64,000 nt of DNA from Chloroflexota bacterium (GTDB taxonomy: Bacteria > Chloroflexota > Anaerolineae > Aggregatilineales > Phototrophicaceae). Made by a program: the position numbers and the translations under genes. This document shows positions 4,183-61,855 of this stretch, in pieces. Under the pieces are notes generated by a model, which saw nothing but the letters and a program-made list of their open reading frames with translations, was not told the DNA's origin and searched no databases. Numbering within the stretch: position 1 is the stretch's first letter; the number at the start of each line of letters is the position of its first letter. The DNA lies in NCBI GenBank assembly GCA_028875245.1, contig JAPPEU010000048.1:1-64000 (forward strand), written 5' to 3'.

Positions 4183-4507
4183 TCCGACCCGTTTGCGCCA
4201 TATGATGGAATGGGCGCAAACTTCAGAGCTTCTTGTCGCACGTGAATCACGGTATTCCCTCGACGAAAATGTAGCCCTGCGTTTGGCGTTGACCAGAACA
4301 CTGCAAGTCATAGGCGAAGCGGCGAACAATGTCACGGCGGAATCGCGACGAGCGTACCCCGCTATTCCATGGGCTGATATCATCGGTATGCGTCACAAAC
4401 TGGTTCATGTCTACTATGCGGTAGATTTGAATATAGTCTGGACAACGGTCTCTGAGTATGTTCCACCGCTGCTTGCCCAATTGCAGCGCATACTTGAAGA
4501 TGAATAG
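4160..4507 (+). CDS. hepT: HepT-like toxin (HEPN ribonuclease, module 1)
   Basis: About 115 residues with the HEPN signature Rx4HxY in GMRHKLVHVYY; in HepT toxins this forms the RNase active site at a dimer interface. A TTG start at 4160 (LPKTLANDP) is chosen because it aligns with the start of module 2; TTG at 4154 is an alternative, and the upstream ATG at 4088 would only add residues that are mntA read in another frame. The reading frame is intact. Its partner MntA lacks catalytic aspartates, so neutralisation must be by binding alone, by an MntA from modules 2 or 3, or the toxin is itself harmless. Confidence 0.75.
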   Translation: MPKTLANDPTRLRHMMEWAQTSELLVARESRYSLDENVALRLALTRTLQVIGEAANNVTAESRRAYPAIPWADIIGMRHKLVHVYYAVDLNIVWTTVSEYVPPLLAQLQRILEDE

Positions 4508-4539
4508 CGCTGACACAAGTGATTGGAAAACCTGAAATC

Positions 4540-4884
4540 ATGAGCGAGCCCGTCGTTATTGACCTGCCGCTGGAAGCGATCCGCGCTTACTGCGAAGGCC
4601 AGCCAATTCTGCGCCTGTCGGTCTTTGGCTCGGCCGCGCGCAATGAGTTGACGCCGGAGAGCGATATTGATTTGCTGGTTGAATACGAGCCCGAAGCTCG
4701 AATCAGCTTGTTTGATTTAGGCGGGCATCTAATGGACTTTCAGGACATCGTCGGACGCAAAGTCGATCTGGTCACGCCGAAAGGTTTGTGCCCTTACATC
4801 CGCGACGATGTGTTGGATGAAGCGAGGCTTATCTATGCGAAGGAGTCCTGCGCGGGACCGAGTTCATCTGTTGCGCATGCGTGA
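4540..4884 (+). CDS. mntA: MntA antitoxin, minimal nucleotidyltransferase (module 2)
   Basis: A 114-residue nucleotidyltransferase with the complete active-site motif: G30 S31, then ten residues to D42-I-D44. In characterised MntA-HepT pairs this protein modifies the Tyr of the Rx4HxY motif of HepT with AMP and silences it. The ATG at 4540 is preferred over GTG at 4519 because it gives the same N-terminal length as copies 1 and 3. The gene runs 50 bp into hepT2, the usual translational coupling for these pairs. Its DNA is strongly similar to mntA3 around the motif, which points to local duplication. Confidence 0.85.
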   Translation: MSEPVVIDLPLEAIRAYCEGQPILRLSVFGSAARNELTPESDIDLLVEYEPEARISLFDLGGHLMDFQDIVGRKVDLVTPKGLCPYIRDDVLDEARLIYAKESCAGPSSSVAHA

Positions 4885-5200
4885 TGCAGCCCAATATGCA
4901 CAGCAATTCGCTGCTGGCCGCGAGATTGAAGGGCTGAACACCGATATCCAGTTTCGTATGGCTCTTGTAAAAGCAGTCGAGTTAGTCGGCGAATCTGCCA
5001 GCCACACCTCCGATGAGTTGCGCGCCCAGCAACCTCAATTACCATGGAAGAAAATGATTGGCATGCGAAACGTTCTCGTACATAACTATTGGGCGATTGA
5101 GCAGGAGGAGTTCTGGGATGCCGTGCAAATCCACATTCCGGCGCTCATTACCGAACTAGAACGCCTTATCAAACTGGAAGACGAGCGGCGCATGAAGTGA
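4835..5200 (+). CDS. hepT: HepT toxin (HEPN ribonuclease, module 2)
   Basis: A 121-residue HEPN-fold protein with Rx4HxY in GMRNVLVHNYW. The ATG at 4835 (MRRSPARDR) lies inside mntA2 in another frame. The all-helical body and length (about 115-140 residues) fit HepT. This is the only module of the three in which both partners look intact. It has no separate promoter and must be read with mntA2. Confidence 0.85.
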   Translation: MRRSPARDRVHLLRMRDAAQYAQQFAAGREIEGLNTDIQFRMALVKAVELVGESASHTSDELRAQQPQLPWKKMIGMRNVLVHNYWAIEQEEFWDAVQIHIPALITELERLIKLEDERRMK

Positions 5201-5217
5201 CGGCCAGCCACGAGTCA

Positions 5218-5239
5218 TTCTCCCTCGCCATCATCGCCG
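5218..5239 (+). repeat. 22-bp exact copy of the mobA 5' coding region
   Basis: Positions 5218-5239 are identical to 6063-6084, the part of mobA that encodes FSLAIIA just before the GTP-binding loop. The copy lies just after hepT2 and before module 3. It is best read as a leftover of an earlier junction in which mobA followed module 2 directly, before module 3 arose between them. The rest of 5201-5381 shows no gene. Confidence 0.7.
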
Positions 5240-5381
5240 ATACAAACTGTCGCTGCAAGGGAGTCCTGACGCCAGCCAAAAACCAAGTCGCTATGCGCAG
5301 TAGGGTCATTCCCGACCTATTCCCGTAGTATATCTATGCGCAAGCTCTCATGATATGATGATGGTAGAAGGAGCAACCGTC

Positions 5382-5819
5382 ATGACCGAGACAATCCTCG
5401 CAGAGATTCCACTGAAACAAATACGCGAATACTGTGAAAGGCAGCCGATACGGCGACTGTCCGTGTTCGGCTCGGCCGCGCGAGATGAATTGACGCCGGA
5501 GAGCGACATAGATCTGCTCGTAGAGTATCTGCCCGATGCGCCCGTCGGGTATTTCGCCATGGCGCGACATATGAGAGCGTTGAGCGAAATCGTGGGGCGT
5601 CCAGTTGACTTGTGCACTCGAAACGGACTAAAGTACTACATTCGCCAAGAAGTTGACGCTAACGCAAGACTCATTTATTGCGCAAGAGCCCACGGAATGA
5701 TCGGTCGCGTCTGCTTGATATGCTACACGCAGCGCGAATCGCGAATGCATTTGCTAAAGATACTGACCGACAAGCTGTCAAGAACCATTTGGTGCTGCAA
5801 TCTGGCTTGGCCAAGTTGA
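5382..5819 (+). CDS. mntA: MntA antitoxin with run-on C-terminus (module 3)
   Basis: A nucleotidyltransferase with the intact motif G30 S31 ... D42-I-D44. The ATG at 5382 is chosen because AAGGAG sits 8 bases upstream and it matches copies 1 and 2; an in-frame ATG at 5355 lacks this. The normal domain ends near 'ARLIY' (about residue 103), but the frame stays open for another ~43 residues that overlap hepT3 in another frame and resemble no MntA tail. The usual stop seems to have been lost. Overlap with hepT3 is about 140 bp against 50 bp in module 2. Confidence 0.75.
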   Translation: MTETILAEIPLKQIREYCERQPIRRLSVFGSAARDELTPESDIDLLVEYLPDAPVGYFAMARHMRALSEIVGRPVDLCTRNGLKYYIRQEVDANARLIYCARAHGMIGRVCLICYTQRESRMHLLKILTDKLSRTIWCCNLAWPS

Positions 5820-8451: not shown

Positions 8452-9357
8452 ATGGCGTTTGCACAAACTTTGTGGGACAAAGCAAAATCAGAAGTGTCTT
8501 CTCCGCCTACAATTGAAAACTGCGATTGCCGTTTAGGGATGATGAGAATTGACGACAATCATGTTTCTCTTGTATTGACTGACCCTCCGTATTTTATAGA
8601 TGGAATGGACAATAACTGGAATTCACATAAGCTCAAGAAACGTGTGAAACCCGGAGTTGTCGGAGCTCTCCCTGCCGGGATGAAATTCTCTTCTGAACAA
8701 GGACGAAACCTGCAGAAATTTTTACAACCAATCGCAGAAGAATGGATGCGGATATTGCGCCCCGGAGGGTTCGCATTGGTCTTTAGCCAGAACCGGCTTG
8801 TTCATCGAACTGCACTCGCGCTGGAAGAATCGGGATTCGAGATTCGGGATATGCTGCTATGGAAATACGAGGGACAAGCTAAAGCATTCACGCAAGAACA
8901 CTTTGTGCGCAAAAGCAAACTGCAGGAGTCTGAAAAGGAACGGCTTATAAAGAAATTGGGCGGTCGCAAAACCCCACAACTGAAACCCCAAGGCGAATTG
9001 ATTGTGCTTGCGCAAGCTCCTAGAGAAGGTACATTTGTACAGAACTGGGATAAGTGGGAAACGGGACTAATTGACGTATCGAATCCATATATAGACAGAG
9101 GGCGATTTCCAGGAACGGTAATGGCCGTCTCCAAGCCCAAGAAACGATTTGGTCATATGACTGCAAAACCAGTAGATTTGTTGCGCCATTTAATCAGGAT
9201 ATTCTGCGCACCAGGATCGCTGGTGTTTGATCCGTTTGCTGGTTCAGGGTCTACCGGCGTGGCCGCATTGCTGGAACGGCGCGAGTTCCTAGGGTTCGAA
9301 ATTGAGACAGACATGGCAAGACGCGCCAATGAACGAATTGGAGAGCTGCATGTATGA
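8452..9357 (+). CDS. Site-specific DNA methyltransferase (N4/N6 amino type)
   Basis: A 301-residue beta-class methyltransferase: the catalytic TDPPY comes first (residues 43-47) and the SAM-binding FDPFAGSGSTG comes near 260-270. AAGGAG stands before the ATG at 8452. It should methylate an adenine or cytosine N in the recognition site of the endonuclease encoded directly downstream. It overlaps that gene by 8 bp. Base composition is visibly more AT-rich than the flanking formate dehydrogenase genes, and the pair sits between two subunits of one enzyme, which suggests insertion by transfer. The recognition sequence cannot be read from the gene. Confidence 0.88.
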   Translation: MAFAQTLWDKAKSEVSSPPTIENCDCRLGMMRIDDNHVSLVLTDPPYFIDGMDNNWNSHKLKKRVKPGVVGALPAGMKFSSEQGRNLQKFLQPIAEEWMRILRPGGFALVFSQNRLVHRTALALEESGFEIRDMLLWKYEGQAKAFTQEHFVRKSKLQESEKERLIKKLGGRKTPQLKPQGELIVLAQAPREGTFVQNWDKWETGLIDVSNPYIDRGRFPGTVMAVSKPKKRFGHMTAKPVDLLRHLIRIFCAPGSLVFDPFAGSGSTGVAALLERREFLGFEIETDMARRANERIGELHV

Positions 9358-10048
9358 TTTACCCTCTAGGTCCGCATTGCAAAAGGCTTGGGAAGACTTG
9401 CAAGAAATACACGCACAATATCTTGCAAAGTACCGCGTTAAACTTCCCCCAGCAATTCAATATGATGAACAAGCCAGGTCAATATGGCTCTCGGTACTGT
9501 TCCACTATCAGGATCAGGGGCAGGACGTCCACAAGAATTTCATAAGCGCAGTGTGCCAAAGAGATTACCCCGGTCTCGCTCCCGACCAACAGGTCCGCCA
9601 TTTGAAGCGAGATGGATGGAAGTTGCATAATGACGGAAAAGGCAACCATAGGCTAGACCCATTCCAACCATCATTAGAATACCTCAACACAGAATATCGG
9701 AAAGATGGGCTGCTTGCCGCTAAGTCATTTGACGATATCAAACGCACTTTCGGATATAGTTGCGCGACTTGTGGCGCGCGTGAAGGATGGCCCGACCCAC
9801 GTTATGGAGAAGACAAAGTTAGACTACAAAGAGGTCATCGAGACCCAGCCAAACCGGCTAACGATAAGCTAAACATTATACCGCAGTGTCAGTTTTGCAA
9901 TCGGGCGTACAGAGGGGATTTTGTCTTTGATGAAAAGGGGCGCGCATGGGCCGTCGCCGACATTGGGCCAGTCCAACGAGCTTCTACTGATGTGAAGAAG
10001 AAATTGTTGCAATTCCTTAGAGGCCTCTTCAACGGGGTAGGCAAATGA
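9350..10048 (+). CDS. HNH-type restriction endonuclease
   Basis: About 232 residues. The C-terminal half carries a zinc-supported HNH site: CATCG, then RGH, then NIIPQCQFCNRAY (pattern C-x2-C ... H ... N ... C-x2-C ... N). The ATG at 9350 (MYDLPSRSA) overlaps the methyltransferase stop as ATGTATGA and follows GGAG; ATG at 9329 is a possible alternative. Coupling to a DNA methyltransferase supports a type II restriction role. Its stop overlaps the next start (ATGA at 10045), so the downstream formate dehydrogenase subunit is translationally coupled to a restriction enzyme. The AT-rich composition matches the methyltransferase. Confidence 0.8.
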   Translation: MYDLPSRSALQKAWEDLQEIHAQYLAKYRVKLPPAIQYDEQARSIWLSVLFHYQDQGQDVHKNFISAVCQRDYPGLAPDQQVRHLKRDGWKLHNDGKGNHRLDPFQPSLEYLNTEYRKDGLLAAKSFDDIKRTFGYSCATCGAREGWPDPRYGEDKVRLQRGHRDPAKPANDKLNIIPQCQFCNRAYRGDFVFDEKGRAWAVADIGPVQRASTDVKKKLLQFLRGLFNGVGK

Positions 10049-48406: not shown

Positions 48407-50695
48407 TCATTCCTGAATCTTCATCTTGAGCCAATAATTGCGGTAGGCGCGCGTCTCCCGCAGGAGCAGGCCCAGCCGCTTTTGCAGCGCGTCCAGTTGA
48501 TCGCGCGGCGCGCCATCCGCCAGTGCCAGCCGATAGTCGCCGCTGGCGCCCACTTGATAATCCAGTTTACCCAGCGCGCGCAAGACTTGCAAACCGACAG
48601 CAACGCTGCGCTCGCGATCAGCCATGGCCGCCGCCAATGTCTCCAGCCCGGCCAAGCCATCCTTGCGCTTGACCGCGTATTTGACCAGCGCGGCCAAACG
48701 CGCCAGGAAGCCCGTCAGTGTCTCGGTCGAGGGGCGTAGGCCAAAGAGAACAAGACGGCTTGGATTGACAGTCGCCAAAGCCGCCGACCAAAGCGCGTCC
48801 GCCGGCGGGACCGTCCAGACGATCAGCGTTTCGCTCGGCGTCAACTGAAGCCGATCGACTGCGCCGTCGGTCTCTTCCACTTCCGCCCAGATTGTCGCCG
48901 TCGGATAGGCTTCCCGCGCTTGCGCCAGCATTTTCAGCGGCTCAGCGCATTGACGGAAGTCTTGCAGCTCATAGACGGGCGCCGGCGCCTCGGCATCGAT
49001 TGAAGCGGCGTCGAGCTGACGAAAGTCCAGCCATTCGACGAGCGCTTCCCGTTCGCCCTTGTAGCGGCTGGTACGGAGGGTATAAGCCAGGTCGAAGCGC
49101 CCGCTCGGCAAGTTGGCTTTCGCGCCGCGCCACCAGATGGCCCGCTGCCGCCGGCCGCCCGCATCCTCGACTTCAACTTGCAGATGCTCCCCGCGGCGGC
49201 CCAGCCCTTTGCCGCTCGCCACTTTCAGGTTTCGCGTCGCCATGGTCAATGCCGGGTTGCCATTGCCAAAGGGCGCCAGGCGCTCGATATCGGCCGTCAG
49301 CGCCAGCGAGATATCAGACAGCTCAAGATAGCCGTCAATCGCCAGTGAAGGCGCGACCGGCGGCGTCTCGCGCACGCTGCGCGACAGAGCGCGCCGGAAT
49401 TGGAAGATTTTATCGGCGGGCAAGCTGAACCCGGCCGCCATGCTGTGGCCGCCATAGCGAATGAGCTGTTCGGAGGCGCGCCCCAGGGCGGCTGTGATAT
49501 CGACCCCCTCCAGCGAGCGGGCCGAGCCGCGCCCCGTCTCATCGGGCGCCGCGATAAGCGCGGCAGGCAGGCCGAATTCTTCAACCAGCCGACTTGCTAC
49601 GATGCCGATGACGCCGCTGTGCCAATCTTCATGGCTCAGCACGAGGGCGGCGTAATCCAGCAGCCAGGGTTCATTCTCGATCTGGGCGATGGCCGATTCA
49701 TAAACCTGATTCGACAGAAACTTCCGGCGCGCGTTGAAGCTCTCCAGCGAATTGGCCAATATGCGCGCCCGCGCCCAATCGCTCGTGGTCAGCAATTCGA
49801 CCGCCGGGTTGGCGTCGTCGAGCCGCCCCAAGGCGTTCAGGCGCGGCGCAAGCGCAAAGCCGATATGGCCCTCGTTGAGCTCAGCCGCCGGAATATCCGC
49901 CCGTTCCAGGATCGCCTTCAGGCCCAGCCGCCGGTTCTCCCGCAGTAGCGCCAGGCCGCGCTGCAAGAGATAACGCGCGTCGTCCACCTGCGGCATGACA
50001 TCGGCGACGATGCCGAGCGCCACCAGGTCAAGCAGGTTGTCGCTCGCCGCCCGCCCGGTCAGCGCTTCCATGAGCTTATAGGCGACGCCGACGCCGGGCA
50101 GCTCGAGCAAGGGATGACCGGCCGGCAATCGGCGCGGGTTGACGACAGCTTCGGCCGCCGGCAAAGCCTCCGGCAGCGAGTGATGATCGGTGATGACTGT
50201 ATCGACCCCGCGGCTCGCGGCATAATCAACGGCATCATGGGCGCTCACGCCGGTGTCGCAAGTAAGGAGGAGCTCGACGCCGCCATCAAGGTGGCGCTTG
50301 AGAGTCGGCAGGTGGATGCCGTGGCCCTCTCGGAAACGATTCGGCACGTGGTAGCGCACAAGCGCGCCACGCTGGCTCAAGGCGGCATACAGCAGCGCGG
50401 TCGATGTCTGCCCGTCAACATCAAAGTCGCCCCATATCAGGATGCGTTCTTTATCACGCAGCGCGCGCTCCAGCCGGTCGACAGCGCGGTCGATATCCGG
50501 CAGGTCGGAGGGTAAGGCCGGGCTGTACTTCTCCGGCGAAAGGAAGCGCTCGGCCGCCGTCGCCGATGTGATGCCCTTGCGCGCCAAATACTGCCCAACC
50601 AGCGCATGCCCGCCGACGAGATCAGCGAGCGGCCCCGGCACGTCAACGGGCGCCGGCTCCCGCCATTCGCGGCGCGCGCGTCCCATTCGGGCCAT
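48407..50695 (-). CDS. recJ: Single-stranded-DNA-specific exonuclease RecJ
   Basis: A 762-residue 5'-3' ssDNA exonuclease. DHH phosphoesterase motifs: ILIWGDFDVDGQTSTALL near 85-102, CDTGVSAHDA, the DHH block VITDHHSLPEA and VGVAYKL. The DHHA1 part shows LSHEDWHSGVIGIVASRLVEEF (read as two adjoining blocks) and RYGGHSMAAGFSL. The C-terminal ~200 residues beyond the OB domain are an extension also seen in Gram-positive and Chloroflexota RecJ. Its start shares bases with the stop of the enolase gene (TGATG). It acts in recombination and mismatch repair. Confidence 0.92.
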   Translation of the reverse strand: MARMGRARREWREPAPVDVPGPLADLVGGHALVGQYLARKGITSATAAERFLSPEKYSPALPSDLPDIDRAVDRLERALRDKERILIWGDFDVDGQTSTALLYAALSQRGALVRYHVPNRFREGHGIHLPTLKRHLDGGVELLLTCDTGVSAHDAVDYAASRGVDTVITDHHSLPEALPAAEAVVNPRRLPAGHPLLELPGVGVAYKLMEALTGRAASDNLLDLVALGIVADVMPQVDDARYLLQRGLALLRENRRLGLKAILERADIPAAELNEGHIGFALAPRLNALGRLDDANPAVELLTTSDWARARILANSLESFNARRKFLSNQVYESAIAQIENEPWLLDYAALVLSHEDWHSGVIGIVASRLVEEFGLPAALIAAPDETGRGSARSLEGVDITAALGRASEQLIRYGGHSMAAGFSLPADKIFQFRRALSRSVRETPPVAPSLAIDGYLELSDISLALTADIERLAPFGNGNPALTMATRNLKVASGKGLGRRGEHLQVEVEDAGGRRQRAIWWRGAKANLPSGRFDLAYTLRTSRYKGEREALVEWLDFRQLDAASIDAEAPAPVYELQDFRQCAEPLKMLAQAREAYPTATIWAEVEETDGAVDRLQLTPSETLIVWTVPPADALWSAALATVNPSRLVLFGLRPSTETLTGFLARLAALVKYAVKRKDGLAGLETLAAAMADRERSVAVGLQVLRALGKLDYQVGASGDYRLALADGAPRDQLDALQKRLGLLLRETRAYRNYWLKMKIQE

Positions 50696-51888
50696 CAGCC
50701 GGTCAGCGTCCGTTCCTCGACGACGGTCAAACCGTCTTGCGCCAGATCCATATTCAGGCCGGGCGCATCCGGCAGGTCGATATGTCCATCAACCGGCACG
50801 AGCTTGTGCTGGTAAAAGACGTTCGTCAGGCGGCCGATTTGGAAGAGCCATTCTTGCATCGGGCAGGTCGTCAGCGTCTGCGAAGCGATGAGATGGGTCG
50901 AGGGCCAGCCGCCGTGATGCGGGATCACCGGGATGTCATAAGCCGAGGCCAAAGCGCAGATCTTCGTCATTTCGCTCAAGCCGCCGGCCCAGGTCACATC
51001 GGCTTGCAAGACATCCACCGCGCGCGCATCAAGCAGAGCCTTGATGCCCCAGCGGGTATATTCATGTTCGCCGCCGGAGATGAAGACGCCGCGGGCGCTC
51101 TTTCTCAGTTCGGCGTATTGCGGAATGAGGTCCGCCAGCACCGCCTCTTCAAACCAGTAGGGGCGATACTCGCGCGAAAGTTCAATCATGCGCAGCGTGT
51201 AAGGCACGTTCCAGCTGCTCCAGGCGTCGAACATCAGATCGCAATCGGGGCCGGCCGCCTCGCGCGCCGCCCGGATGACCGCCAGATTCTTCCGGATGCC
51301 CGCTTCGCCGTCTTTAGGCGCGCAAGGCAGGAACCACTTGAAGGCGGTGAAGCCCTGCGCCAGGAAGTGCCGCGTCCGCTCGACAACCTTGTTCGGCTCG
51401 ACCGAGTAACCCAGCATCGAAGCATAGGCGCGGATTCGGCTGCGCGTGGGCCCGCCGAGCAGTTGGTAGACCGGCGCATCCAGGAGCTTGCCCTTGAGGT
51501 CCCAAAGCGCCAGGTCGACCTTGCTCAGCGCCATCATCGGGGTACCCTTGCGCCCGTGGATCGAATGCCGGTACATCTTGTCCCAGATGCGTTCGACCGC
51601 CTGCGGATCTTCGCCCAGGAGGATGTCGACGAAATATCGATTGATGATGGCGATGTCTTCGTCACTGACGGGACCGCAAACGCCGGTCGCGCCTTCATCG
51701 GTATCGATAAGCAAGAAGTGGGCGTCGACCGGGTAAGGCGGCCCCTTGGATACGTCGACGGGCCAGGGCGGGTCGGCCGCCAGTTCCGGGTAGATGCTCG
51801 CCGGGCGCGAGAGGTGGGCTTCGCCAAGGGGCTCGTGATAATCCCACTCGGCGCTGACATGCAGGCTGCGTACGCGGTCGATTTTCAT
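50695..51888 (-). CDS. Enolase superfamily dehydratase (L-rhamnonate dehydratase-like)
   Basis: A 397-residue mandelate-racemase-type enzyme. Metal ligands follow the superfamily pattern: MFDAWSSWN (Asp), YWFEEAV (Glu) and SGGEHEYTRWG (Glu), and the catalytic His lies in VIPHHGGWPS. The SGGEHE...RWG and PHHGG parts and the N-terminal Trp/Pro-rich cap resemble L-rhamnonate dehydratase. It would produce a 2-keto-3-deoxy sugar acid for the aldolase encoded at 34968. It is sandwiched between a nuclease gene (16 bp gap) and recJ (1 bp overlap). Confidence 0.82.
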   Translation of the reverse strand: MKIDRVRSLHVSAEWDYHEPLGEAHLSRPASIYPELAADPPWPVDVSKGPPYPVDAHFLLIDTDEGATGVCGPVSDEDIAIINRYFVDILLGEDPQAVERIWDKMYRHSIHGRKGTPMMALSKVDLALWDLKGKLLDAPVYQLLGGPTRSRIRAYASMLGYSVEPNKVVERTRHFLAQGFTAFKWFLPCAPKDGEAGIRKNLAVIRAAREAAGPDCDLMFDAWSSWNVPYTLRMIELSREYRPYWFEEAVLADLIPQYAELRKSARGVFISGGEHEYTRWGIKALLDARAVDVLQADVTWAGGLSEMTKICALASAYDIPVIPHHGGWPSTHLIASQTLTTCPMQEWLFQIGRLTNVFYQHKLVPVDGHIDLPDAPGLNMDLAQDGLTVVEERTLTG

Positions 51889-51904: not shown

Positions 51905-52735
51905 CTAAAACTCTATCTCGGCGATCTGATCAAAATCCAGCGAGAAGGCGTCTTCTTCTTCGACGCCCTCGAATTCATCAAAGTCGATATCTTCCAGGCG
52001 CCCGGCCCCGCCCCGGTCACAATGCGAGCGGTAGCTGCAGAAGCGGCAGCGGCTCTCCTCGTCGGTCAGCGGGAAGGCGTCGGCGCGGTCAATGGCGGCG
52101 ATCATATCGGAGAGCAGCGCTTCGTCTTCGCGCATTTGCGCCGCCGAATAATCGACGCTCAGGCGCTCGCCACCCAGGGCTACGTAGACATAATCCATGC
52201 GGATGCGCTCCGGCGCGATGGTCTCGCCGGCGAGCAAGTGGGCGCCGGCCTGCGCCAGCACGTAACGATAGACGATCGTCTGCATGCGCCCGCGCAAGTA
52301 AGACAATGACGGGATGCGCGGTCCCGTCTTCCAGTCGACAATGACCGCCGGCCCGCCCGGCTCCAGCGCCAGCAGGTCATATTTTGCCAGCAAACGGCGG
52401 CCAGCCAAATGAGTCTGCAATGTGATCTCGCCGTATCGACGCGCCGGCAAATCAGTCAAGCCGCGCTCCAGATAATTCGACCACCAGCGGGCCAGCTCCG
52501 CGTCATCGGAGAGCGAAGCCGCCAGCGCCTCAGCCGGTACGCCGAGCAGATGCTGCTGCACCAGTTTGTGGAAGCGCGCTCCTTGCCGCAGCCGCGCCTC
52601 AAATTGCAGCGGATCTTGCGCTTCCAGGGCCGGGTAGCGCATCCGCTTGATATAGCGCAATTCAAAGCGGCGGGCGCAATCGGCATAATCGCCCAGGCTG
52701 CCTTGCGTGAAGGCGAAATCAGCGTTGAGCGTCAC
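51905..52735 (-). CDS. PD-(D/E)XK nuclease with Fe-S cluster motif (AddB/Cas4-like)
   Basis: About 276 residues. A RecB-type nuclease core is seen: HKLVQQHL (the early His), the Asp and DWKTG block of VIVDWKTG, and a later QTIVYRYVL with conserved Q/Y. One Cys (C20) near the N-terminus and C230-x2-C233-x5-C239 near the C-terminus match the [4Fe-4S] clamp of AddB and Cas4. The last 40 residues are very acidic. GTG at 52735 is chosen, giving 17 bp overlap with the helicase gene; an ATG at 52783 would overlap by 65 bp. Confidence 0.8.
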   Translation of the reverse strand: MTLNADFAFTQGSLGDYADCARRFELRYIKRMRYPALEAQDPLQFEARLRQGARFHKLVQQHLLGVPAEALAASLSDDAELARWWSNYLERGLTDLPARRYGEITLQTHLAGRRLLAKYDLLALEPGGPAVIVDWKTGPRIPSLSYLRGRMQTIVYRYVLAQAGAHLLAGETIAPERIRMDYVYVALGGERLSVDYSAAQMREDEALLSDMIAAIDRADAFPLTDEESRCRFCSYRSHCDRGGAGRLEDIDFDEFEGVEEEDAFSLDFDQIAEIEF

Positions 52736-54959
52736 GAACCGCCTCTTTCTCTCGCTCGCCTTCCCAAAAACTGCGCAGCGCAATCAAGGGCGTGGCTTCA
52801 GTCGCCGTGCCGCGGCCCGTGTTCCAGGTGATGGTCAGGGCTTTGCGCGCGCGTGTGATGCCGACGTATAGCAGGCGCAATCGCTCGGCGGCGTAATCAA
52901 TGCGCGCGTCCAGGCTGGCGAAGCCTTCCTGGTAGGCTTTGCCGTCTTGCAATGCCGCCAACTGGGCCAGAGCTTCGGCGGACATATTGAGATCGTCGCG
53001 AATGAACCATTTCTCGCCGATGAAGCTGTCGTTCGGCTCGGCCGAAGGAAAGTCATAATTGTTGACCGAGATCAGATAAACGCGGTCCCATTCCAAGCCC
53101 TTGGCTTTGTGCAGCGTTGTCACGGTCACGACACCCTTGCGCGCGTCCGGGTCGAATTGTCCTTCGTCGTCGCCCAAGCCCGTGAAGCGTCGTTTGTTGT
53201 CGGCGATGTCGTAAAGCTCGGCCGCGAATTCGGGCAGGCGCATCAGCGGATGGGCCTCAGCCAAGCGCGACAGGTGCAGGGCCACCATGTGCGCCGTGGC
53301 GATCTCCCCCACATCGCGAAACAGCTCGCCCGCGATCGTCAAGATCAACTGATCGATGGGCATCTCCGCCGCCCGCAGCCAGCTGCCAACGCGCTCGCGA
53401 AAGGCTTCCAGCGTTTGAAAATGCGAGCCCCGCTCCTCGTCGGCGACGGCGTCTTCAAGCCAGTCTATCAGCCGCGGCGCGACCAAATCCTCCACATGCT
53501 TGACCCGCTTCAGCGCGCGGATGACCGTCTTGATCCCCGCGACCGCCGCCGGATCATCGCGCTCGTCGCGCCGCCATACGCGATACACCTCCGCCAGCTT
53601 GCCGGCGCTCTTGGGGTCCGCCAGATAAGCCAGCGTCCGCGCCAGCGCGCCAACCACCGCCCGCGTCGATGAGCTGCTGTTGAGGTTCTCAACGTAGGGC
53701 ACCGCCTTCTGCCGCAAGAATTTCACGATTTCCGAGCCGCGGGAATTGCGCGCCACCAGGATAGCCGCCGTCCCTTCCGGGTTTGCCGCCAGCCAGCGCT
53801 TACAGGATTCTGTCACAATCATGGCTTCTTTGGTCGCGCTGTACGCTTCGCCAAACAAGACGACGGCTTCCGGATCGTCGGCCGGGTTCGGTTGGGGATC
53901 GCCCGCCGGCGTGGGCTGAATATGGGGTGTGCTCAAGGGGCTGCGCTCGCGAATCTTCCGGTGGGGATGCGCCAGGGACCAGTCGATCAAATGATTCGCC
54001 AAGCGCTGGATGCTGCGCGTGCTGCGTCCGGAATTCGGCAGCTCGCGCCCGTCGACCCGTTCATCGGCGATGAAAGCGCGCAGATATTTGGGGTCGGCAG
54101 TGGTGAAGGTCTCGAAGATCGCTTGATTGGGATCGCCCACCCGCGCCCAATTGCCGCCTTCGCCGGCCAGCAGCCGCAGGATGTCTTCCTGCAGGCGCGA
54201 GCTGTCCTGCGCTTCATCCTCGAGGATGTAGACCCACTTGCGCTGGAGCGCCGCGAGATAATCGGGCTCCTCCCGCAGCACTTTCAAAGCCAGGCGGATC
54301 AAGTCTTGAAAGTCAACGGCGCCGCGATAAGTCAGCGCGCGTTCATAATCCGTATAGATTTCAGCGCAGGTCTCGGCCAGAGCCAGTTCGCCGCGGTAAG
54401 CCTCGAGTTTTTCCCGCAGGTCGGAGGGCGTCAGCAGGTCGTCCTTGGCCTGGCGGATGAAGCTGCGCGCCGTCTCGCTCAGGATTTCCGCCCATTTCTG
54501 GGTTCGATAGTGGGCGTTGTCGACATATTTGGGCGCCAGATAGAGGTCGGCCGCTTCCGGATGGCGGCGCGCCCAGGCGTCGACGGCTTCCGCCAGGATC
54601 TCGTTGCTCTCGCGTTCATCGACAATGGTGAATTGATCGTCCAGGCCAGCGGCGCTCGGTTTGCCGCGCACAATGTCATTCGCCAGGCTGTGCAAGGTGC
54701 GCACGCGGTAGCCATAACCCGGCAGAAGCCCGTCGCTCTTGACATATTCGTTCACCTGGCGCGCAAAGTTCGACACGGCCGAATTCACCAACGTGACGAT
54801 GAGGATTTCCTGCCCCTCTTCCAGCTCGGTTTCCGCCAGCAAGGCCGCCGTCAGATAGGACAGCGTGGCCGTCTTCCCGCTGCCGGGCACGGCCGCTACG
54901 CCCATGCAGCCGCGGCGATAATCCAGCACCTCTTGCTGTTTTGGCCGCGGCCTAAACAT
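52719..54959 (-). CDS. UvrD/PcrA-family ATP-dependent DNA helicase
   Basis: A 746-residue superfamily 1A helicase. Motifs: PKQQEVL (Q), GVAAVPGSGKTATL near 20-33 (Walker A), RVRTLHSLAND (Ia region), ILEDEAQDSS (motif II, DExQ intact), GDPNQAIF (III), VTTLHKAKGLEWDRV (V) and RLLYVGITRARKAL (VI). It should be the active 3'-5' motor. It overlaps the nuclease gene downstream and the second helicase gene upstream by 8 bp, so the three are translated together. Confidence 0.9.
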   Translation of the reverse strand: MFRPRPKQQEVLDYRRGCMGVAAVPGSGKTATLSYLTAALLAETELEEGQEILIVTLVNSAVSNFARQVNEYVKSDGLLPGYGYRVRTLHSLANDIVRGKPSAAGLDDQFTIVDERESNEILAEAVDAWARRHPEAADLYLAPKYVDNAHYRTQKWAEILSETARSFIRQAKDDLLTPSDLREKLEAYRGELALAETCAEIYTDYERALTYRGAVDFQDLIRLALKVLREEPDYLAALQRKWVYILEDEAQDSSRLQEDILRLLAGEGGNWARVGDPNQAIFETFTTADPKYLRAFIADERVDGRELPNSGRSTRSIQRLANHLIDWSLAHPHRKIRERSPLSTPHIQPTPAGDPQPNPADDPEAVVLFGEAYSATKEAMIVTESCKRWLAANPEGTAAILVARNSRGSEIVKFLRQKAVPYVENLNSSSSTRAVVGALARTLAYLADPKSAGKLAEVYRVWRRDERDDPAAVAGIKTVIRALKRVKHVEDLVAPRLIDWLEDAVADEERGSHFQTLEAFRERVGSWLRAAEMPIDQLILTIAGELFRDVGEIATAHMVALHLSRLAEAHPLMRLPEFAAELYDIADNKRRFTGLGDDEGQFDPDARKGVVTVTTLHKAKGLEWDRVYLISVNNYDFPSAEPNDSFIGEKWFIRDDLNMSAEALAQLAALQDGKAYQEGFASLDARIDYAAERLRLLYVGITRARKALTITWNTGRGTATEATPLIALRSFWEGEREKEAVRDAQR

Positions 54960-57105
54960 CCTGCGCCTCCCGCATCAGCCGACGCAGCAGGCTCTGCATC
55001 GTCTCCAGCAGCAGGCCGCGCCCTTCATAGCCGCTTTCGCTGAGCTCGCTGTGGCCCAGATAAATCGCTTTGCGGCAGCGGCGCGTCAAAGCCAGCATCA
55101 GCCGGCGCAGCGACTGCCGGTTCAATTCCCGCTCGTCTTCGTCGGTCCAGACCGCGCCCGGCGCCCAGCCCCGGCTCAGGACGTAGGGATGGGTCAAAGG
55201 CTGATACAAACGGCGCGCCCAGCCCTCACTGCCGATGTTCAGCCAGAATTGATAATCAACCGCGCGATTGCTGAGCAGGAACGTATAGGCCGGCGCAATC
55301 AGCACACCCGCTTCGGCATCGGCGATCCAATCGCGCAGATAAAAGTTGGCGATGACGCCGCGGTCCACCATCTTCACATAATCCAGGCCCAGATCGATAT
55401 TGGCGTCATAGCGGCTCATAAAATCGAGGGCCCAACGGAAGCTGCGGGCGGAATCCACCAGATTCTGGGCGGTATTGCCGGCGTCGACATCAGCATGAAA
55501 GCCGAAGCCTGCGCGCGCGAGCAAACCGCCGTATATCCGCCGGAAGAAGATATCAATGGCGTCCACCGGCTCGCCGTCGATGTAGCGGTTCAGCCAGGCC
55601 GCCAGCCGGTCGTAACGTTCCCCCAGATCATAGGTGATGCGATCCTGCATCGCCGGCGAGCGAACCTCGGCAAAGGGGGACAGACGGCCATTCCGGTAAA
55701 GCATTTCGGTCAAGAGCTTGGCGCGCACCAAATCGAGATCCTGGATCGCTGTCATCAAGGCGCAGACCACATCGAAATTGGTGGGCGGCAGCTCCCAGTT
55801 CGGATGCGCGATGCGCGCCAGGGTCAACAGGGTGCGAGCGGCCGGCTCATCGCGCAGGGCCCGCGACGGCCGATGCGAACGCAGCGGGATCCCGAACCCG
55901 GCCAAACCCTCCGCCAGGCCGAAGCGCAGCGCGTCGGAAAGAAAGGGCGCCAGGATCACGATTTCAGCGGGCGGCACATCCTCCTCGTCAACCAGCCGAT
56001 GCACCTCCCGCGCCACCCAGTCCACCATCTGCGGATGATAGCGATGCGTTTCCGCTCTTAATGCCGGCCGCGGATCGGCGCCATTCTGAAGCGCAGCGGG
56101 CGCGCCCAACTGCCCCGCCAATTGCAGGCCTAACGCCGCCACCTCCTGGCTCATCACGAAGCTTTTGTCGAAGCTCACGCTTCTATCGCAAAGGTCGCGC
56201 AGGCGCCGCGCCTCGGCTGGATCCGCGCCCAAGAAACGGCGGAAACCGGCATCGCTGTCAACTATGATCAGCGCCGACAAACTGCTCTCCAGCAATTCGC
56301 GCAAGAATCCGTGCGTGACGGGATTGTCCTCTTCCACATTGTCCGCGATGACATGCTTGTAGCGAGCGCGCAGATAATCCTGCGCCTGCGTCGTCGGCCA
56401 GACGAAATCGCGGAATACTTCCAGCTGCAGGGAAAAGTCAAGCAAGTTATGTGACAGGCAGTATTGGCGAAAAGCCAGGGCGCAAGTCTGCGCGTCATCA
56501 AATATATGCGCCTGCTCGACGCCGCCGGCCAGCGCCGTTTTCAAGCGCGAGCCGATCTCGCTGATGGGGAAGCCCACCATGGCCGCTTTATTCATGTTGT
56601 CGACAATCTGGCTGTAGAGCCGCTGCCGATCGATGCGCACACTGTTGAAGTAATCCCGTTCGTCAATCAATGGCTCAATGACGCGCGCCATGAAGTATTG
56701 CGCCAGTTCCAAGCCGATGAAATTAGGCAGATCGCGCGGATGCCAAAAACCAGCCGCCTCGGCGATGAGGAACCAAAAGGTCTCAACCATTTGCAATGAC
56801 AGGCTGCCGATGGTGTGCACGGACACCTGACCGCCGCGATGCTCCGTCCAGCCGCGCAGCGCTCGGATATAGGGCTGGGCCAAGGAACGCTGCGGCGCCA
56901 TGATCAGGATCGACTCGGCCGGCACGCCAGCCTCAATCAGGCGCAGCGCGCGCCCAACGCCGACGCTGGTCTTGCCGCTTCCCGCCATGCCTTCCAGCCA
57001 GATCTTGCGCCGGACTGGCTCGTCGATCAACTCGGCCTGCGCCGCGCTCAGGCGGATCCCCTCTCGCTCGCTCAGGTTAGGCCGTCCTTTCACAATGGAA
57101 AACAT
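54952..57105 (-). CDS. UvrD-like helicase with altered motif II
   Basis: A 717-residue superfamily 1 helicase relative. Walker A is intact (LEGMAGSGKTSVG, near 38-50). Where motif II (V-D-E-x-Q-D) is expected, it reads I-A-D-N-V-E-E-D-N-P, so the Glu that activates water is Asn. The C-terminal motif VI is kept (RRLMLALTRRCRKAIYLG). This suggests an ATP-binding but weak or inactive motor that partners with the active helicase, much as AddB partners with AddA. ATG at 57105 (MFSIVKGRP) is preferred over 57126. First gene of the long minus-strand unit. Confidence 0.75.
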   Translation of the reverse strand: MFSIVKGRPNLSEREGIRLSAAQAELIDEPVRRKIWLEGMAGSGKTSVGVGRALRLIEAGVPAESILIMAPQRSLAQPYIRALRGWTEHRGGQVSVHTIGSLSLQMVETFWFLIAEAAGFWHPRDLPNFIGLELAQYFMARVIEPLIDERDYFNSVRIDRQRLYSQIVDNMNKAAMVGFPISEIGSRLKTALAGGVEQAHIFDDAQTCALAFRQYCLSHNLLDFSLQLEVFRDFVWPTTQAQDYLRARYKHVIADNVEEDNPVTHGFLRELLESSLSALIIVDSDAGFRRFLGADPAEARRLRDLCDRSVSFDKSFVMSQEVAALGLQLAGQLGAPAALQNGADPRPALRAETHRYHPQMVDWVAREVHRLVDEEDVPPAEIVILAPFLSDALRFGLAEGLAGFGIPLRSHRPSRALRDEPAARTLLTLARIAHPNWELPPTNFDVVCALMTAIQDLDLVRAKLLTEMLYRNGRLSPFAEVRSPAMQDRITYDLGERYDRLAAWLNRYIDGEPVDAIDIFFRRIYGGLLARAGFGFHADVDAGNTAQNLVDSARSFRWALDFMSRYDANIDLGLDYVKMVDRGVIANFYLRDWIADAEAGVLIAPAYTFLLSNRAVDYQFWLNIGSEGWARRLYQPLTHPYVLSRGWAPGAVWTDEDERELNRQSLRRLMLALTRRCRKAIYLGHSELSESGYEGRGLLLETMQSLLRRLMREAQDV

Positions 57106-57314: not shown

Positions 57315-57356
57315 TATATTGTATCTATACTGTCTAATGGCGGAGCCAATCTCCTT

Positions 57357-57602
57357 ATGGTCCAAGACCACCGTCCTCGTTCCGAAACGCGACAGTTAAT
57401 GATCGACATCGTCGCGCGCAGCGAGCGCCCTCTCACGCGAACAGAAATCGTCAACCGGCTCAATCGGAAGAAAACACCGCACCTCATCAACATGATGGAT
57501 GTGCTGGTGGACGAAGGCGTCTTTCTCCGCAGTATCCATACCTTCAATAATGGCGTCACCGGTTACGTTTATTCCGTAGCTCAAGCTTACGCGAAAGAAT
57601 AG
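57357..57602 (+). CDS. Small winged-helix DNA-binding protein
   Basis: An 81-residue protein. The sequence [20 protein letters not shown] followed by [25 protein letters not shown] and a beta wing ([14 protein letters not shown]) is a MarR-like or BlaI-like winged helix-turn-helix. It probably represses its own operon. It lies 10 bp before parA on the same strand. ATG at 57357 is chosen by position behind the promoter; the frame is open upstream to 57279. Confidence 0.7.
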
Positions 57603-57612
57603 GTTAATCGCC

Positions 57613-58410
57613 ATGAAAATTATTACGCTCCTGAACGAAAAAGGCGGCGTCGGCAAGACGACCCTGGCGACGCACCTGGCCGCCGGTTTAGCCATACGCG
57701 GCAAGCGCGTCATTCTGGTCGACGCCGACCCCCAGGGACATGCCACCATCGCTTTCGGCCTGTCGAAGGAGCCGGGCTTCTACGACCTCATCGTGCGCAG
57801 CGCCCCCTTCCGCCAGGTGCTGCGGCCGGTCCCGCCCGAGCGCTTCAACGTGCCGGACGAGGCGGACGCGACATCCGGCCAGTTGCTGATCGTCCCCTCA
57901 AACATTGAGACGCGCAGCATCGCCGGTAATATATCCGATGCCTTCACCGTTTTGAAGCGATTCAATCAATTGCGCAATGCAATTGATTTTGTTTTTTTCG
58001 ACACATCGCCGACCCCGTCGCTGCTGCATTCTTCCATTTATATGGCAACCGACGGGATCATTTATCCGACAAAATGCGAAGCCTGGAGCTTCGACGGCCT
58101 GCGCGAGAGCCTGACGCATAAAGACCAATTCAGCCCCATTCGTCAGCAATACAATTTGAACGATATCAAGGTCCTTGGGGTCGTGCCAACGATGTACCGC
58201 GGCCGCACCCTGGAACACCAGGACAACCTCCGCCGTTTGCAGGACACCTTCGGCAGTCTCGTCTGGAAGCCGCTTCCCGTCCGCACCATTTGGACGGAAG
58301 TGGCCAGCGCCCGCCGCACGGTCTTTTCGCTGGCGCCCGGCAGCAGCACGGCCGAAGACGCCTGGCGGCTGGTTGAGCAGCTTGAGGAGCGGATCTATGA
58401 GCAGTCGTGA
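57613..58410 (+). CDS. parA: ParA family ATPase
   Basis: A 265-residue deviant Walker ATPase: [15 protein letters not shown] at 9-23, [15 protein letters not shown] near 36-50 and [14 protein letters not shown] near 129-142. It should move DNA cargo over the nucleoid in step with the ParB-like protein downstream. No N-terminal HTH is present (type Ib or chromosomal type). Overlaps the parB-like gene by 14 bp. Confidence 0.9.
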
Positions 58411-59605
58411 ACGCCGGCGCAAAATTCAAGACGAAGAAAATCTGCTCTTTGCCAATCCGAATACGCTTGATCCCAAGACTGCCGACGCCATCGGCTTCGG
58501 CCTAGGAGAATTGGCGCTTGATATCGCCGCCGCCGACAGCGAGTTTCAGCCGATTGAAGCGGTCAGCATCCACGAGATTCATCCCAACTCCATCCAGCCG
58601 CGTTACAGCATTCCCCACGATCTCGCCGAGATCTTCGTCCTCCATCCCAAGAATATCGTCGACATTTTCGAGCGTTGGATTGTTGAAGTGCAGCTCGAAC
58701 GTGGGCAAAAAGATTATGATATTCTCAATTACCTTTTAGGGACTGTTACCGACCGCGGCGAACGCGCCGAATCCGAAGACGGCGACGCCGGTCATGGTGA
58801 GCAGCCGCCTTCCACCAAAGAGCTGGCTCTGATGAAACTCATTGACCTGGCCGCCAGCATCCGGCGCGACGGCCTGTCGAACCCCATCAGCCTGGTGCAG
58901 CGCGACGACGGTTATGAGATCGAGACCGGCGAACGCCGCTGGCTCGCTTATCACATCCTCTATTGGAAGTTCGGCGATGGCGACAAGCGCGGCGATGGCA
59001 GCATCGTCAATTGGTCGCGCATTCCAGCGCGGAGCGTGAAGCAGGTCGATGTCTGGCGGCAAGCCAGCGAAAACAACGCCCGCGACAACCTCAACGCCAT
59101 CAGCCGCGCGCGGCAGCTTGCGCTCCTGCTGATGGACCTGCACGGCTGGCAGCATTTCAGCCAGATCGGAGCTTGCGCAAATGAACAAGCCTTCTACGCG
59201 CAAGTGGCCGATGGCAAGGCTTGGCGTATACCGCGCGGCCAAGGCGAGCGTCTCGTCAATGCCATGGGGCTTTCCGACGCCGGGCAGCTCCGTCAATATC
59301 GCGCCCTGTTGCGGCTGCCGGGCGATCTTTGGCGCAAGGGCGATGATGAAGATCTCAGCGAGGGCGAGCTGCGCCGAATGAAGGCTTCGCTCGATAGCGT
59401 TACACGTGTAACGGTACCGCGAGAGAAGCGCAAAAAAGACGCCCTGGCCCGCCTCGCCACCGATGCCACCCTCTGGCGCAACAAACTCCGCAAAGAGATC
59501 AATGCCGTCGACTCGGGCAATCGGCCCAGGATTCGCAAACTGATTGAAGCCGAGATTCGCCAACTCCTCCGGCTCATGGCCGATATCGACGAATCCGAAA
59601 GCTAG
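58397..59605 (+). CDS. Divergent ParB-like partition protein
   Basis: A 402-residue protein. The CTP-binding ParB core is recognisable: 'NSIQPRYSI' near 56-64, [14 protein letters not shown] then [14 protein letters not shown] (GERR box) and [20 protein letters not shown] (the EN.xR.dLN.i..A box). Compared with usual ParB (about 280-300 residues) there is an insertion of roughly 75 residues, acidic in part ([15 protein letters not shown]), between the first two boxes. A helical DNA-binding region and a basic C-terminus follow. ATG at 58397 is used because it overlaps the parA end. A perfect 16-bp palindrome lies inside its coding region. Confidence 0.78.
59398..59413. promoter_or_regulatory. 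Perfect 16-bp palindrome, candidate partition site
   Basis: CGTTACACGTGTAACG is a perfect inverted repeat inside the parB-like gene. With flanking bases it shares 22 positions with the site at 59782 (in inverse orientation, allowing one central base difference). The form resembles parS (classic TGTTTCACGTGAAACA) with the same CACGTG centre. Confidence 0.55.
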
Positions 59606-59830
59606 CGCGCTCTCCCCAAACCTGCTCAGCAATTGCCTCGTGACGGGCGACTGATTTCTCCCGCCGCTCTTCAGGCGCCTTGCCTGCGGCCAGTCACTGT
59701 GGACAGCCATCCACCCCCGCCCCTCGAGCAAACAAAAAAGACACATCCGCCGATGTGCCTTCCTTTCTCGCCGACCGCTACCGTTACACCTGTAACGCTA
59801 ATCCCTGTCCGCCGCCGCCCCCGAAAGCCA
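59606..59830. other. Short intergenic region between convergent parB-like and primase genes
   Basis: 225 bp, no gene seen. It contains the second palindrome at 59782-59797 and a few A-rich tracts near 59730. No clear iterons. Confidence 0.5.
59782..59797. promoter_or_regulatory. Near-perfect 16-bp palindrome, candidate partition site
   Basis: CGTTACACCTGTAACG differs from the site at 59398-59413 only at one central base. The flanks TAC on the left and CTA on the right also match the inverted first site. It lies in non-coding DNA 177 bp behind the parB-like gene. Confidence 0.55.
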
Positions 59831-61855
59831 TCAAGCTGTCGAGCGCGCAAGCAGATCCAAACTCTGATTCGCATCACCCGCCTGCAGCGCATGGCGCGCC
59901 AGCGACTGCATCACTTCCTTGTATGAGCTCCGCAGCGCCAAATACACATTGCCGTCTCCGAATTCCTTCAGCATCCGGTAGGCGATACCCCGTTTCGCCG
60001 GACGCCGCACCTCGGCGCCGCCAACGTCCAGCGCAAACAAATAGCCATTGATGGACTCCGCCACTTTGTCATCCGCAACCCGCCGGCTCACATTCCCGAA
60101 GAACAGTTGGATCTTCTCATAGCGAATCGCCCGCGCGCGATCCCGAGCCGCTTCAATCGCGCCTCCCAAACGCTTCAGCACGCCACCCGTGCCGGCTCGA
60201 TGCCCCCGCAACTGAATCAGCCGCGCAAATTCTGCCAGGCTCAAGCTCTCGAATTGGGCCGCCGGCCGCAGCTCCGGCCTGAGACTGAATACAGACGACA
60301 GCCGAACGCATACCCGGCCGCCACCGCCTTCGCTCAACAGCCTGCTCCCGATATGCCGCCAGGCGGGCATTCGGCTTCCGTCCGCCGCCTCAAGCCAGAA
60401 ACCCTTGGTCGCATTGCTCCCCGCCCGCCAACTGCGCCTGGGCAAGGATCGAACCACCTCGCGCGTCAATCTCAAACGCCCGACACAAGCGCTAAGTTTC
60501 ACATCCAGCGCCCGGTTGTATCGCCGAATGGTCCGTTCATTCACACCGACCCGCGCGGCCAAAACGGCCAGGGACGAACGTGGCGACAGTCTCGCAATGT
60601 ATTCCCGATGCAATGCCAAACGATACGCTTTTGCCGAACGCAGGTCCTCTTCCCGCAGCGGATCACAAGGCGCCCACAAGACGTTCAGCAGCCTAAGCAA
60701 GCGTGATACCGCTGGCACCTGAAACACCAGCTCCACCGGACGCCCGCGCTTGCGCGGATTAAATCCCCTAATGTCCAGGTATTCTACATATCTTCTACTG
60801 ATAATATGTCGCCCGTCGAAACTGCATAGCTCCCCAGTCAAAGCCTGCAGCACGCTCTTCCTATTCAGCCCGAAGCGCCGCCCTAAAGCGATCGCTTCCG
60901 ACAATGTGAAGTAAGCATCCGCTTCCCAGCCTGCCAATGCGAAGGCATCCAACAAGCGGGGGACTATTGTCGACCCTTGCGCCTGCAGGAGACGCTCGCG
61001 CACCGAGTTTGGCATCCCGCCTTTGACAGACCGGCCCACCCGTCCTGATCGGTAGGCGCTTCTTATCGTCCGCACGCCTTCCTCATTACGCTCTCGCAGG
61101 CTCTCCAGCTTATGACCCGGTCGCCCGGCCATCGACTCATGCACCGGAAGCAGCTTGGATTCCAGTACTGATCGCGCCAAGCCGGCTTCCCGCGCGACGG
61201 ATGCGGCGCGGTACAACGCATTGTTCCGTCCAATCCTTGGCGCCAAACGCCGATACAAGCGCTGCAAATCCACATCCTTAGCCTCGCGAATGCGCTTTCC
61301 CGCGACAACGTGCACTGAGGCCTGGACATGAAAATAATTCAGCAGGCGATCGACATCATCCTTGTCCAGCTCCAGTTCCGCGACCTTCTTTGTGCAGTGA
61401 TATGTGAAGTTGCCTATCCTCGATGGCGGCGCGATGATGTAGGACTTCTCCCCTTTGATATCGCCGCCGTCAAACTGGTGACTTGGCACCTTCTCAGCTG
61501 TTCTGAAATAAAGATGAAATCCCCGCCGCGTTTTCACGGTATAGGTCTCGCTGTACTGCGGCAGGTGGCGACAGAAGCGTTGATAGCGAAGCAGATCGTC
61601 AAAGTCAATCACCAGCAGCTTCGAGACGCGCCCGCAGACGATGCCCAGCGCGCTGGCTCGCTCGCCGAATATTGTTTCAAGTTCGTTTTCCGAAGCGATC
61701 TGGCGCTGATACTTTTTCCAGATGACTGCCGGTCGTTTCGGCTCCGTCGGCGAGCTGTTGCCCTGTACCGGTATCGGTGAGTAGCCGGAGCGCGCCAGAC
61801 GTTTTGCTCGCTTGAGGAGCTCTTTACGTAAAGGATTCACTCTGTTTTTCCTCAT
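59831..61855 (-). CDS. Bifunctional primase-polymerase (prim-pol) replication protein
   Basis: A 674-residue protein. Residues ~18-170 match the N-terminal prim-pol (archaeo-eukaryotic primase) domain: GYSPIPVQG, LGIVCGRVSKLLVIDFDD (metal-binding D-x-D), TVKTRRGFHLYFRT (with the conserved His) and FDGGDIKGEKSYIIAPPS. The remainder is basic and carries at least one helix-turn-helix (SLAVLAARVGVNERTIRRYN near 430-450). Proteins of this kind initiate replication of plasmids and phages. No ring helicase domain is recognised. A -35/-10 pair TTATTG-17-TATAGC on the minus strand may lie upstream. Convergent with parAB. Confidence 0.8.
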   Translation of the reverse strand: MRKNRVNPLRKELLKRAKRLARSGYSPIPVQGNSSPTEPKRPAVIWKKYQRQIASENELETIFGERASALGIVCGRVSKLLVIDFDDLLRYQRFCRHLPQYSETYTVKTRRGFHLYFRTAEKVPSHQFDGGDIKGEKSYIIAPPSRIGNFTYHCTKKVAELELDKDDVDRLLNYFHVQASVHVVAGKRIREAKDVDLQRLYRRLAPRIGRNNALYRAASVAREAGLARSVLESKLLPVHESMAGRPGHKLESLRERNEEGVRTIRSAYRSGRVGRSVKGGMPNSVRERLLQAQGSTIVPRLLDAFALAGWEADAYFTLSEAIALGRRFGLNRKSVLQALTGELCSFDGRHIISRRYVEYLDIRGFNPRKRGRPVELVFQVPAVSRLLRLLNVLWAPCDPLREEDLRSAKAYRLALHREYIARLSPRSSLAVLAARVGVNERTIRRYNRALDVKLSACVGRLRLTREVVRSLPRRSWRAGSNATKGFWLEAADGSRMPAWRHIGSRLLSEGGGGRVCVRLSSVFSLRPELRPAAQFESLSLAEFARLIQLRGHRAGTGGVLKRLGGAIEAARDRARAIRYEKIQLFFGNVSRRVADDKVAESINGYLFALDVGGAEVRRPAKRGIAYRMLKEFGDGNVYLALRSSYKEVMQSLARHALQAGDANQSLDLLARSTA

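Follow-up and report, generated by a model that had tools for sequence, protein, structure and literature searches.

Among the bacterial systems that combine helicases and nucleases at DNA ends, the closest to the locus described here are AddAB and AdnAB. AddAB (Bacillus; PDB 4cej, 3u4q) pairs one live with one motif-inactivated superfamily 1A (SF1A) helicase and carries fused nucleases on both subunits, and in the mycobacterial AdnAB (PDB 6ppr, 9np6, 7sjr) AdnA and AdnB are each motor-nuclease fusions. The inactivated helicase domain of AddB and RecC lies on the path of the single-stranded DNA (ssDNA) and serves there as a scanner (PMC4824097). We have analyzed a stretch of 64,000 nucleotides from a Chloroflexota bacterium (class Anaerolineae, order Aggregatilineales, family Phototrophicaceae; assembly GCA_028875245.1, contig JAPPEU010000048.1, positions 1 to 64,000), hereafter the window, and found an inactivated helicase (HelD), an active one (HelA), an iron-sulfur (Fe-S) nuclease (Nuc) and a second RecJ (RecJ2), each encoded by its own gene. 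We think it probable that the four proteins make up a DNA-end processing (resection) machine. It would work like AddAB and AdnAB in principle, yet on the tests run it lies outside both families. The genes of the locus are the following.

HelD, 54952-57105, reverse strand: full-length SF1A (UvrD-fold) pseudo-helicase, 717 amino acids from ATG, with a GTG at 57126
HelA, 52719-54959, reverse strand: UvrD/PcrA-like SF1A helicase, 746 amino acids, predicted active from its motifs
Nuc, 51905-52735, reverse strand: stand-alone Fe-S PD-(D/E)XK (RecB/Cas4-like) nuclease, 276 amino acids from GTG, the open frame reaching 52783
Enolase/mandelate-racemase family gene, 50695-51888, reverse strand: Pfam MR_MLE, between nuc and recJ2, outside the unit
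RecJ2, 48407-50695, reverse strand: second RecJ, about 760 amino acids, fourth member of the unit

The original prediction, made from the sequence, had described two UvrD-like helicase genes overlapping by 8 bp and an overlap of about 17 bp between the active one and an Fe-S PD-(D/E)XK nuclease. The gene calls agree with both (54952-54959, and 17 bp at 52719-52735). The nuclease is indeed a separate gene, as had been claimed, and neither HelA nor HelD carries a PD-(D/E)XK domain in Pfam. The triad of dead helicase, live helicase and free Fe-S nuclease proved to be conserved, but taking it for the complete unit missed RecJ2, which in the window is split from the other three by the inserted enolase-family gene. 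This insertion is confined to the close relatives of the window, and other loci (L121, L065 and others) are without it.

An active helicase and an inactivated partner

The motifs that distinguish the two helicases are located as follows.

HelA motif II (LEDEAQD), 54204-54224, reverse strand: intact
HelD Walker A (GMAGSGKT), 56968-56991, reverse strand: retained, with Lys and Thr each in 54 of 55 orthologues
HelD motif II (IADNVEED), 56326-56349, reverse strand: Asn in place of the catalytic Glu
HelD-specific signature (QFWLNxGS..GW..R..QPLTHPYVL), 55177-55251, reverse strand: at the place expected for motif V in the alignments, found also in Salinibacter

HelA matches both UvrD domains of Pfam (UvrD-helicase 3.6e-45, UvrD_C 7.5e-21), and in all 36 sequences compared SF1 motifs I, II, III, V and VI have intact key residues. 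Its closest solved proteins are UvrD, PcrA and Rep, followed by AdnB and then by AddA, RecB and GajB.

HelD retains a match to UvrD-helicase (E 1.3e-9) and none to UvrD_C. The AlphaFold2 model (predicted local distance difference test, pLDDT, 88.8) has the complete fold of an SF1A helicase and resembles UvrD, PcrA and Rep (Z about 29), AdnB (Z 25 over 619 residues, root-mean-square deviation 3.9 A) and AddA and AddB (Z 22). A single-sequence search of the PDB with HelD gave matches at chance level and nothing better. The substitution of D-N for D-E in motif II, noticed from the beginning, is shared by most orthologues, the catalytic position being Asn in 52 and Gly in 3 of the 55. The Glu is never present, and the change is therefore no sequencing accident. 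Motif III has Gly in place of Gln and the motif V consensus (TxHxxKGLE) is lost in the alignment, its place being taken by a new signature (QFWLDxGSxGWxxRxxQPLTHPYVL); the motif VI arginines are kept.

The retained residues might suggest that HelD is still alive, the Glu-Glu pair two residues further on (55/55) replacing the catalytic base and giving a two-motor complex, as AdnAB might be. The Walker A Lys and the motif VI Arg would fit such an enzyme. SF1 enzymes require the first Glu of motif II, however, and together with the changes in motifs III and V this makes a working HelD clearly unlikely.

The nuclease and its tail

Two features of Nuc lie toward its C-terminus (the conserved residues below are numbered along a translation starting at 52768).

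Nuc cysteine cluster (CRFCSYRSHC), 52019-52048, reverse strand: C-terminal; with the Cys at 52676-52678, predicted Fe-S ligands
Nuc C-terminal peptide (LDFDQIAEIEF), 51908-51940, reverse strand: conserved, behind an acidic linker of low model confidence

Nuc belongs to PF12705 (PDDEXK_1, E 3.5e-23). Across 46 sequences the catalytic residues D131, D145 (Glu in 2), K147 and Q163 are invariant or nearly so, C31, C241 and C244 are found in every one and C250 in 45. In sequence searches for solved relatives none was significant; those named here came from fold comparison only. The model (pLDDT 86.7, low from about residue 255 on) is nearest to the nuclease domain of AdnA (Z 19.5, 232 residues, rmsd 3.5), ahead of AddB (Z 15.6) and of an Argonaute-associated Cas4 (Z 15.2). 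Against the Cas4 model Nuc reached 26.4 bits (cut-off 65), and no cas genes were seen among the neighbours scanned.

The C-terminal peptide reads DLDDVEEIEF in Salinibacter and is variable or absent in some families. It could be a docking tail. The SSB of the same genome ends in DDIPF, and SSB tails are bound by RecJ through the RecJ C-terminal domain (PMC4846377). Our guess, by analogy, is that the Nuc tail docks RecJ2 in the way the SSB tail docks RecJ.

A second RecJ

RecJ2 passes the RecJ model (NCBIfam TIGR00644, 482.9 bits against a cut-off of 396.9), but it is longer than canonical RecJ and forms a clade apart with support 100/100. Its gene adjoins nuc in many genomes. RecJ is by family a 5'-3' ssDNA exonuclease, and to find one among the members speaks for end resection. 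A different reading would make the set a repair device of the UvrD plus RecJ type for single-strand gaps or stalled forks, in which Nuc removes flaps and no double-strand end is involved. HelA, closest in sequence to UvrD, PcrA and Rep, would suit it, as would the place of RecJ in the RecF pathway (PMC4846377). Nevertheless, the unit has features typical of break-resection complexes (PMC4824097), namely a dead helicase partner and an Fe-S nuclease of the AdnA/AddB type, and an ordinary RecJ is present in nearly all the genomes scanned, including nearly all those with RecJ2. We regard the gap or fork device as decidedly improbable.

Distribution, gene order and joint loss

Strong HelD matches were found in 54 of the 61 genomes of the order, with one more genome giving a match at chance level only. 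Over 301 genomes of the phylum, the HelD profile detected 31 of the 38 belonging to the class (Anaerolineae) and none of the 263 outside it. Within Chloroflexota, where the original prediction had proposed to look for conservation of the triad, HelD is class-wide and was not detected in the genomes sampled outside the class. Of the 80 named HelD relatives kept, nearly all carry the label Anaerolineae or Chloroflexota, Anaerolinea thermolimosa and Thermoflexus among them; one record has the label Fraserbacteria and is possibly a misbinned contig. The HelD tree broadly matches the taxonomic families, indicating that inheritance has been mainly vertical.

Beyond Chloroflexota, plasmid pSR56 of Salinibacter ruber carries the operon with all four genes (profile scores of 816, 906, 319 and 876 bits), and its annotation lists HelD as a hypothetical protein. 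A viral origin of the unit was considered and rejected: viral contigs, scanned with single proteins and with profiles, yielded only one short helicase match at 27%, and phage records yielded none.

The order helD-helA-nuc recurs in 40 loci of the class and in 80 further loci, often with recJ next. The genes mostly overlap or are separated by tiny gaps (median -6.5 bp for helD-helA and -18 bp for helA-nuc). In one large family (f9) nuc is unlinked from helD-helA and yet present, and both Nuc and RecJ2 are kept even where they lie far from the helicase pair. The genes also disappear together. Counting genomes as both, HelD only, other only and neither, the figures were 48/1/0/4 for HelA (Fisher p 1.7e-5), 47/2/0/4 for Nuc (p 5e-5) and 44/5/0/9 for RecJ2 (p 1.9e-7), uncorrected for kinship. 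Genomes without HelD were also without HelA, Nuc and RecJ2. Four genomes without HelD were tested for the whole set of genes. They represent four genera and three families, and two of them (G058 and G034) belong to the family of the window, in which the unit is present in most members.

Several loci departed from this arrangement. One genome (G044, locus L082), 96% complete, has HelD, Nuc and RecJ2 and no match for HelA. At five loci of close relatives of the window (L109, L110, L111, L112 and L120) helD is not followed by helA although the flanking sequence is preserved (little of it in L120), and helA has possibly been relocated. In family f2 (L194:5173-6168, L195:3457-4479) a second PD-(D/E)XK gene overlaps helD upstream, giving nuc2-helD-helA-nuc, that is, two nucleases per two helicases as in AddAB and AdnAB.

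Relation to AddAB and AdnAB

The unit shares with AddAB one live and one inactivated SF1A helicase and an AddB-type Fe-S nuclease, and with AdnAB the SF1A motors and an Fe-S RecB-like nuclease, Nuc being nearest in fold to AdnA and HelD covering AdnB well. It differs from AddAB in having no fusions and no AddA nuclease. Compared with AdnAB, the window and the loci examined have one free nuclease, two free helicases and a RecJ. HelA failed both AddA models (68.5 bits against a cut-off of 707.65 for TIGR02785, 75.9 against 860.75 for TIGR02784). The AddB N-terminal domain PF21445 had no match in the HelD of the window, and 3 of its 55 relatives gave one at E 0.001 or weaker. The operon in the window contains no RecC or RecD gene, and ordinary genes are the immediate neighbours at five other loci.

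A complete AddAB is present in the same genome on another contig (C44, positions 107000-114200, locus L004), the addB and addA genes overlapping by 4 bp. AddB has AddB_N (1.6e-20) and PDDEXK_1, and AddA has UvrD N/C and PDDEXK_1. HelD-HelA-Nuc is consequently an additional system in this genome, and the suggestion that the triad was a three-piece AddAB of this organism had to be abandoned. The prediction had named as a refutation a complete AddAB elsewhere joined to a phylogeny placing these genes in a known unrelated system; the former was found, and no known system claims the genes.

Gene fission of an AddAB could be imagined, with HelA as the AddA motor, HelD as the AddB helicase domain and Nuc as the AddB nuclease. 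The list of parts equals AddB plus a motor, and profile comparison matched Nuc with the AddB nuclease at 93% probability and HelA with AddA at 99.7%. However, HelD matched HelA at 97.5% and AddB at 18% (the AddB profile being made of four sequences), so that in sequence HelD is nearer to HelA than to AddB. HelA falls below the AddA cut-offs and is nearer to UvrD, and real AddAB coexists with the unit in the same genomes. We find an origin by fission hardly credible.

We scanned 53 genomes for proteins with PDDEXK_1 and for the AddB of the window's genome. Among the matches listed, 23 HelD genomes show no AddB-length PD-(D/E)XK protein and 26 have both systems. Three of the four genomes without HelD have AddAB, and the association between HelD and AddB was not significant (p 0.62). 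Individual absences of AddAB could be wrong, because G088, which is among the 23, shows a match of AddA length and only the matches listed were counted. One class member (G188) has neither the unit nor an AddAB-length nuclease, showing only a weak PD-(D/E)XK match.

Similar gene sets and foreign DNA

We found no description of the four-gene unit in the open-access literature. Hudaiberdiev et al. 2017 (PMC5704561) reported UvrD paired with a Cas4-like (PF12705) protein, fused or in an operon, the unfused pairs being mostly from Clostridiales, and repair was guessed as their function. The agreement with our unit is one of gene arrangement only, a stand-alone Cas4-like nuclease beside UvrD in a non-defence context. 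The account given there of the pair describes neither a dead helicase nor RecJ. We also observed in one genome (G016, L193:362-3316) a fusion of UvrD and a Cas4-like PD-(D/E)XK domain of 984 amino acids, followed by large genes, that resembles the defence-associated UvrD-Cas4 fusions covered in that paper.

In Synechococcus elongatus the loss of ago, cas4, uvrD (not PcrA), recJcy (a RecJ paralogue) or 0992 (a PD-(D/E)XK protein) increases natural transformation and the maintenance of RSF1010 (PMC10653904). This cyanobacterium is without recC and recD (PMC5101192). A UvrD paralogue, a RecJ paralogue and a PD-(D/E)XK protein recall HelA, RecJ2 and Nuc, a striking resemblance that we take as a lead; the likeness is by protein kind alone, and no equivalent of HelD is named (PMC10653904).

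These cyanobacterial phenotypes would fit a set that is a barrier to incoming DNA and that unwinds and degrades linear or single-stranded foreign molecules (transforming, conjugating or phage), whether this is its chief function or, as with RecBCD, a side effect of repair. The position of the Salinibacter operon on a plasmid goes in the same direction, and HelA scores against GajB models, though UvrD and PcrA are closer. For Gabija, no GajA (OLD-family ATPase-TOPRIM nuclease) was seen among the genes scanned around the unit in the window. The likeness to the cyanobacterial genes is one of protein kind, the near-universal, taxonomy-following distribution is unlike that of most defence systems, the genes flanking the unit at the five other loci are ordinary and variable, and no copies came from phages or viral contigs. 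A barrier is in our opinion a rather unlikely function. The defence complex offered by the original prediction as a second option is weakly supported, and the set may have a role in limiting foreign DNA.

A model for end resection

Starting from the four genes, their motifs and conservation, the operon and the joint loss, we infer complex formation, strand polarity, substrate and the role of the tail. By analogy with the known machines, HelA would drive, as a 3'-5' motor opening the DNA end. HelD, the dead helicase, would bind ATP and DNA and act as a scaffold and as a guide or scanner for the ssDNA, the part that AddB and RecC play. Nuc would dock on the HelD-HelA pair and cut the emerging strand, and RecJ2, perhaps recruited by the C-terminal tail of Nuc, would carry the resection on by trimming the 5' end, so that RecA is given a 3' overhang.

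Several points weigh against this model. Gap repair or fork processing predicts much the same gene set. Of the 49 HelD genomes, 26 have AddAB as well, and the unit is thus no simple replacement for it. Not all HelD genomes have the other members, as 5 of the 49 are without RecJ2, 2 without Nuc and one without HelA. The Fisher values ignore kinship, and since related genomes are non-independent the p values are weaker than they appear. Finally, Ilyobacter polytropus has a distant HelD of full length, with the motif DNLEN and a score of 223 bits across most of the profile, and none of the other unit genes lies beside it; the family can therefore exist outside the operon.

Other features of the window

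Upstream of the triad (57333-61855) we found genes for a winged helix-turn-helix protein, a prim-pol, ParA and ParB. Among more than 20 close relatives of the window, most have a ParA with 92-99% identity while their HelD reaches only about 64-89%, which marks an unusually constrained partition block. The block resembled an integrated plasmid, and a mobile or defence island was considered and rejected: it is common to the more than 20 close relatives and was not found at other loci. Positions 3865-5819, inside a dehydrogenase gene region, hold small nucleotidyltransferase-like genes in several repeated copies (GSxARxELTPESDIDLLVEY), accompanied by partner open reading frames; they are perhaps MNT/HEPN-like toxin-antitoxin pairs. 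At 8452-10048, among dehydrogenase subunit genes, a DNA methyltransferase-like gene (DPPY motif) and its partner have a low third-position GC (0.45-0.49) and are probably an acquired restriction-modification pair.

Implications

The unit may be the sole machine of its type in many Anaerolineae, those where no AddAB was seen among the matches listed. More tentatively, it could represent a further class of break-resection machines beside RecBCD, AddAB and AdnAB that crosses phyla (Chloroflexota, Rhodothermota and possibly Cyanobacteria, as UvrD/0992/RecJcy), with a separate nuclease, a dead helicase and a RecJ tethered by an SSB-like tail, and that would limit the uptake of foreign DNA; we hold this wider proposal to be possible but doubtful. 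As motor, dead helicase and nuclease are on different polypeptides, the role of a pseudo-helicase becomes testable by simple leave-one-out reconstitution. The unit also ties a RecJ paralogue genetically to a helicase-nuclease. Double-strand-break resection in bacteria is taught as the work of RecBCD, AddAB or AdnAB, and to these the Anaerolineae add a conserved and apparently unnamed set of four genes.

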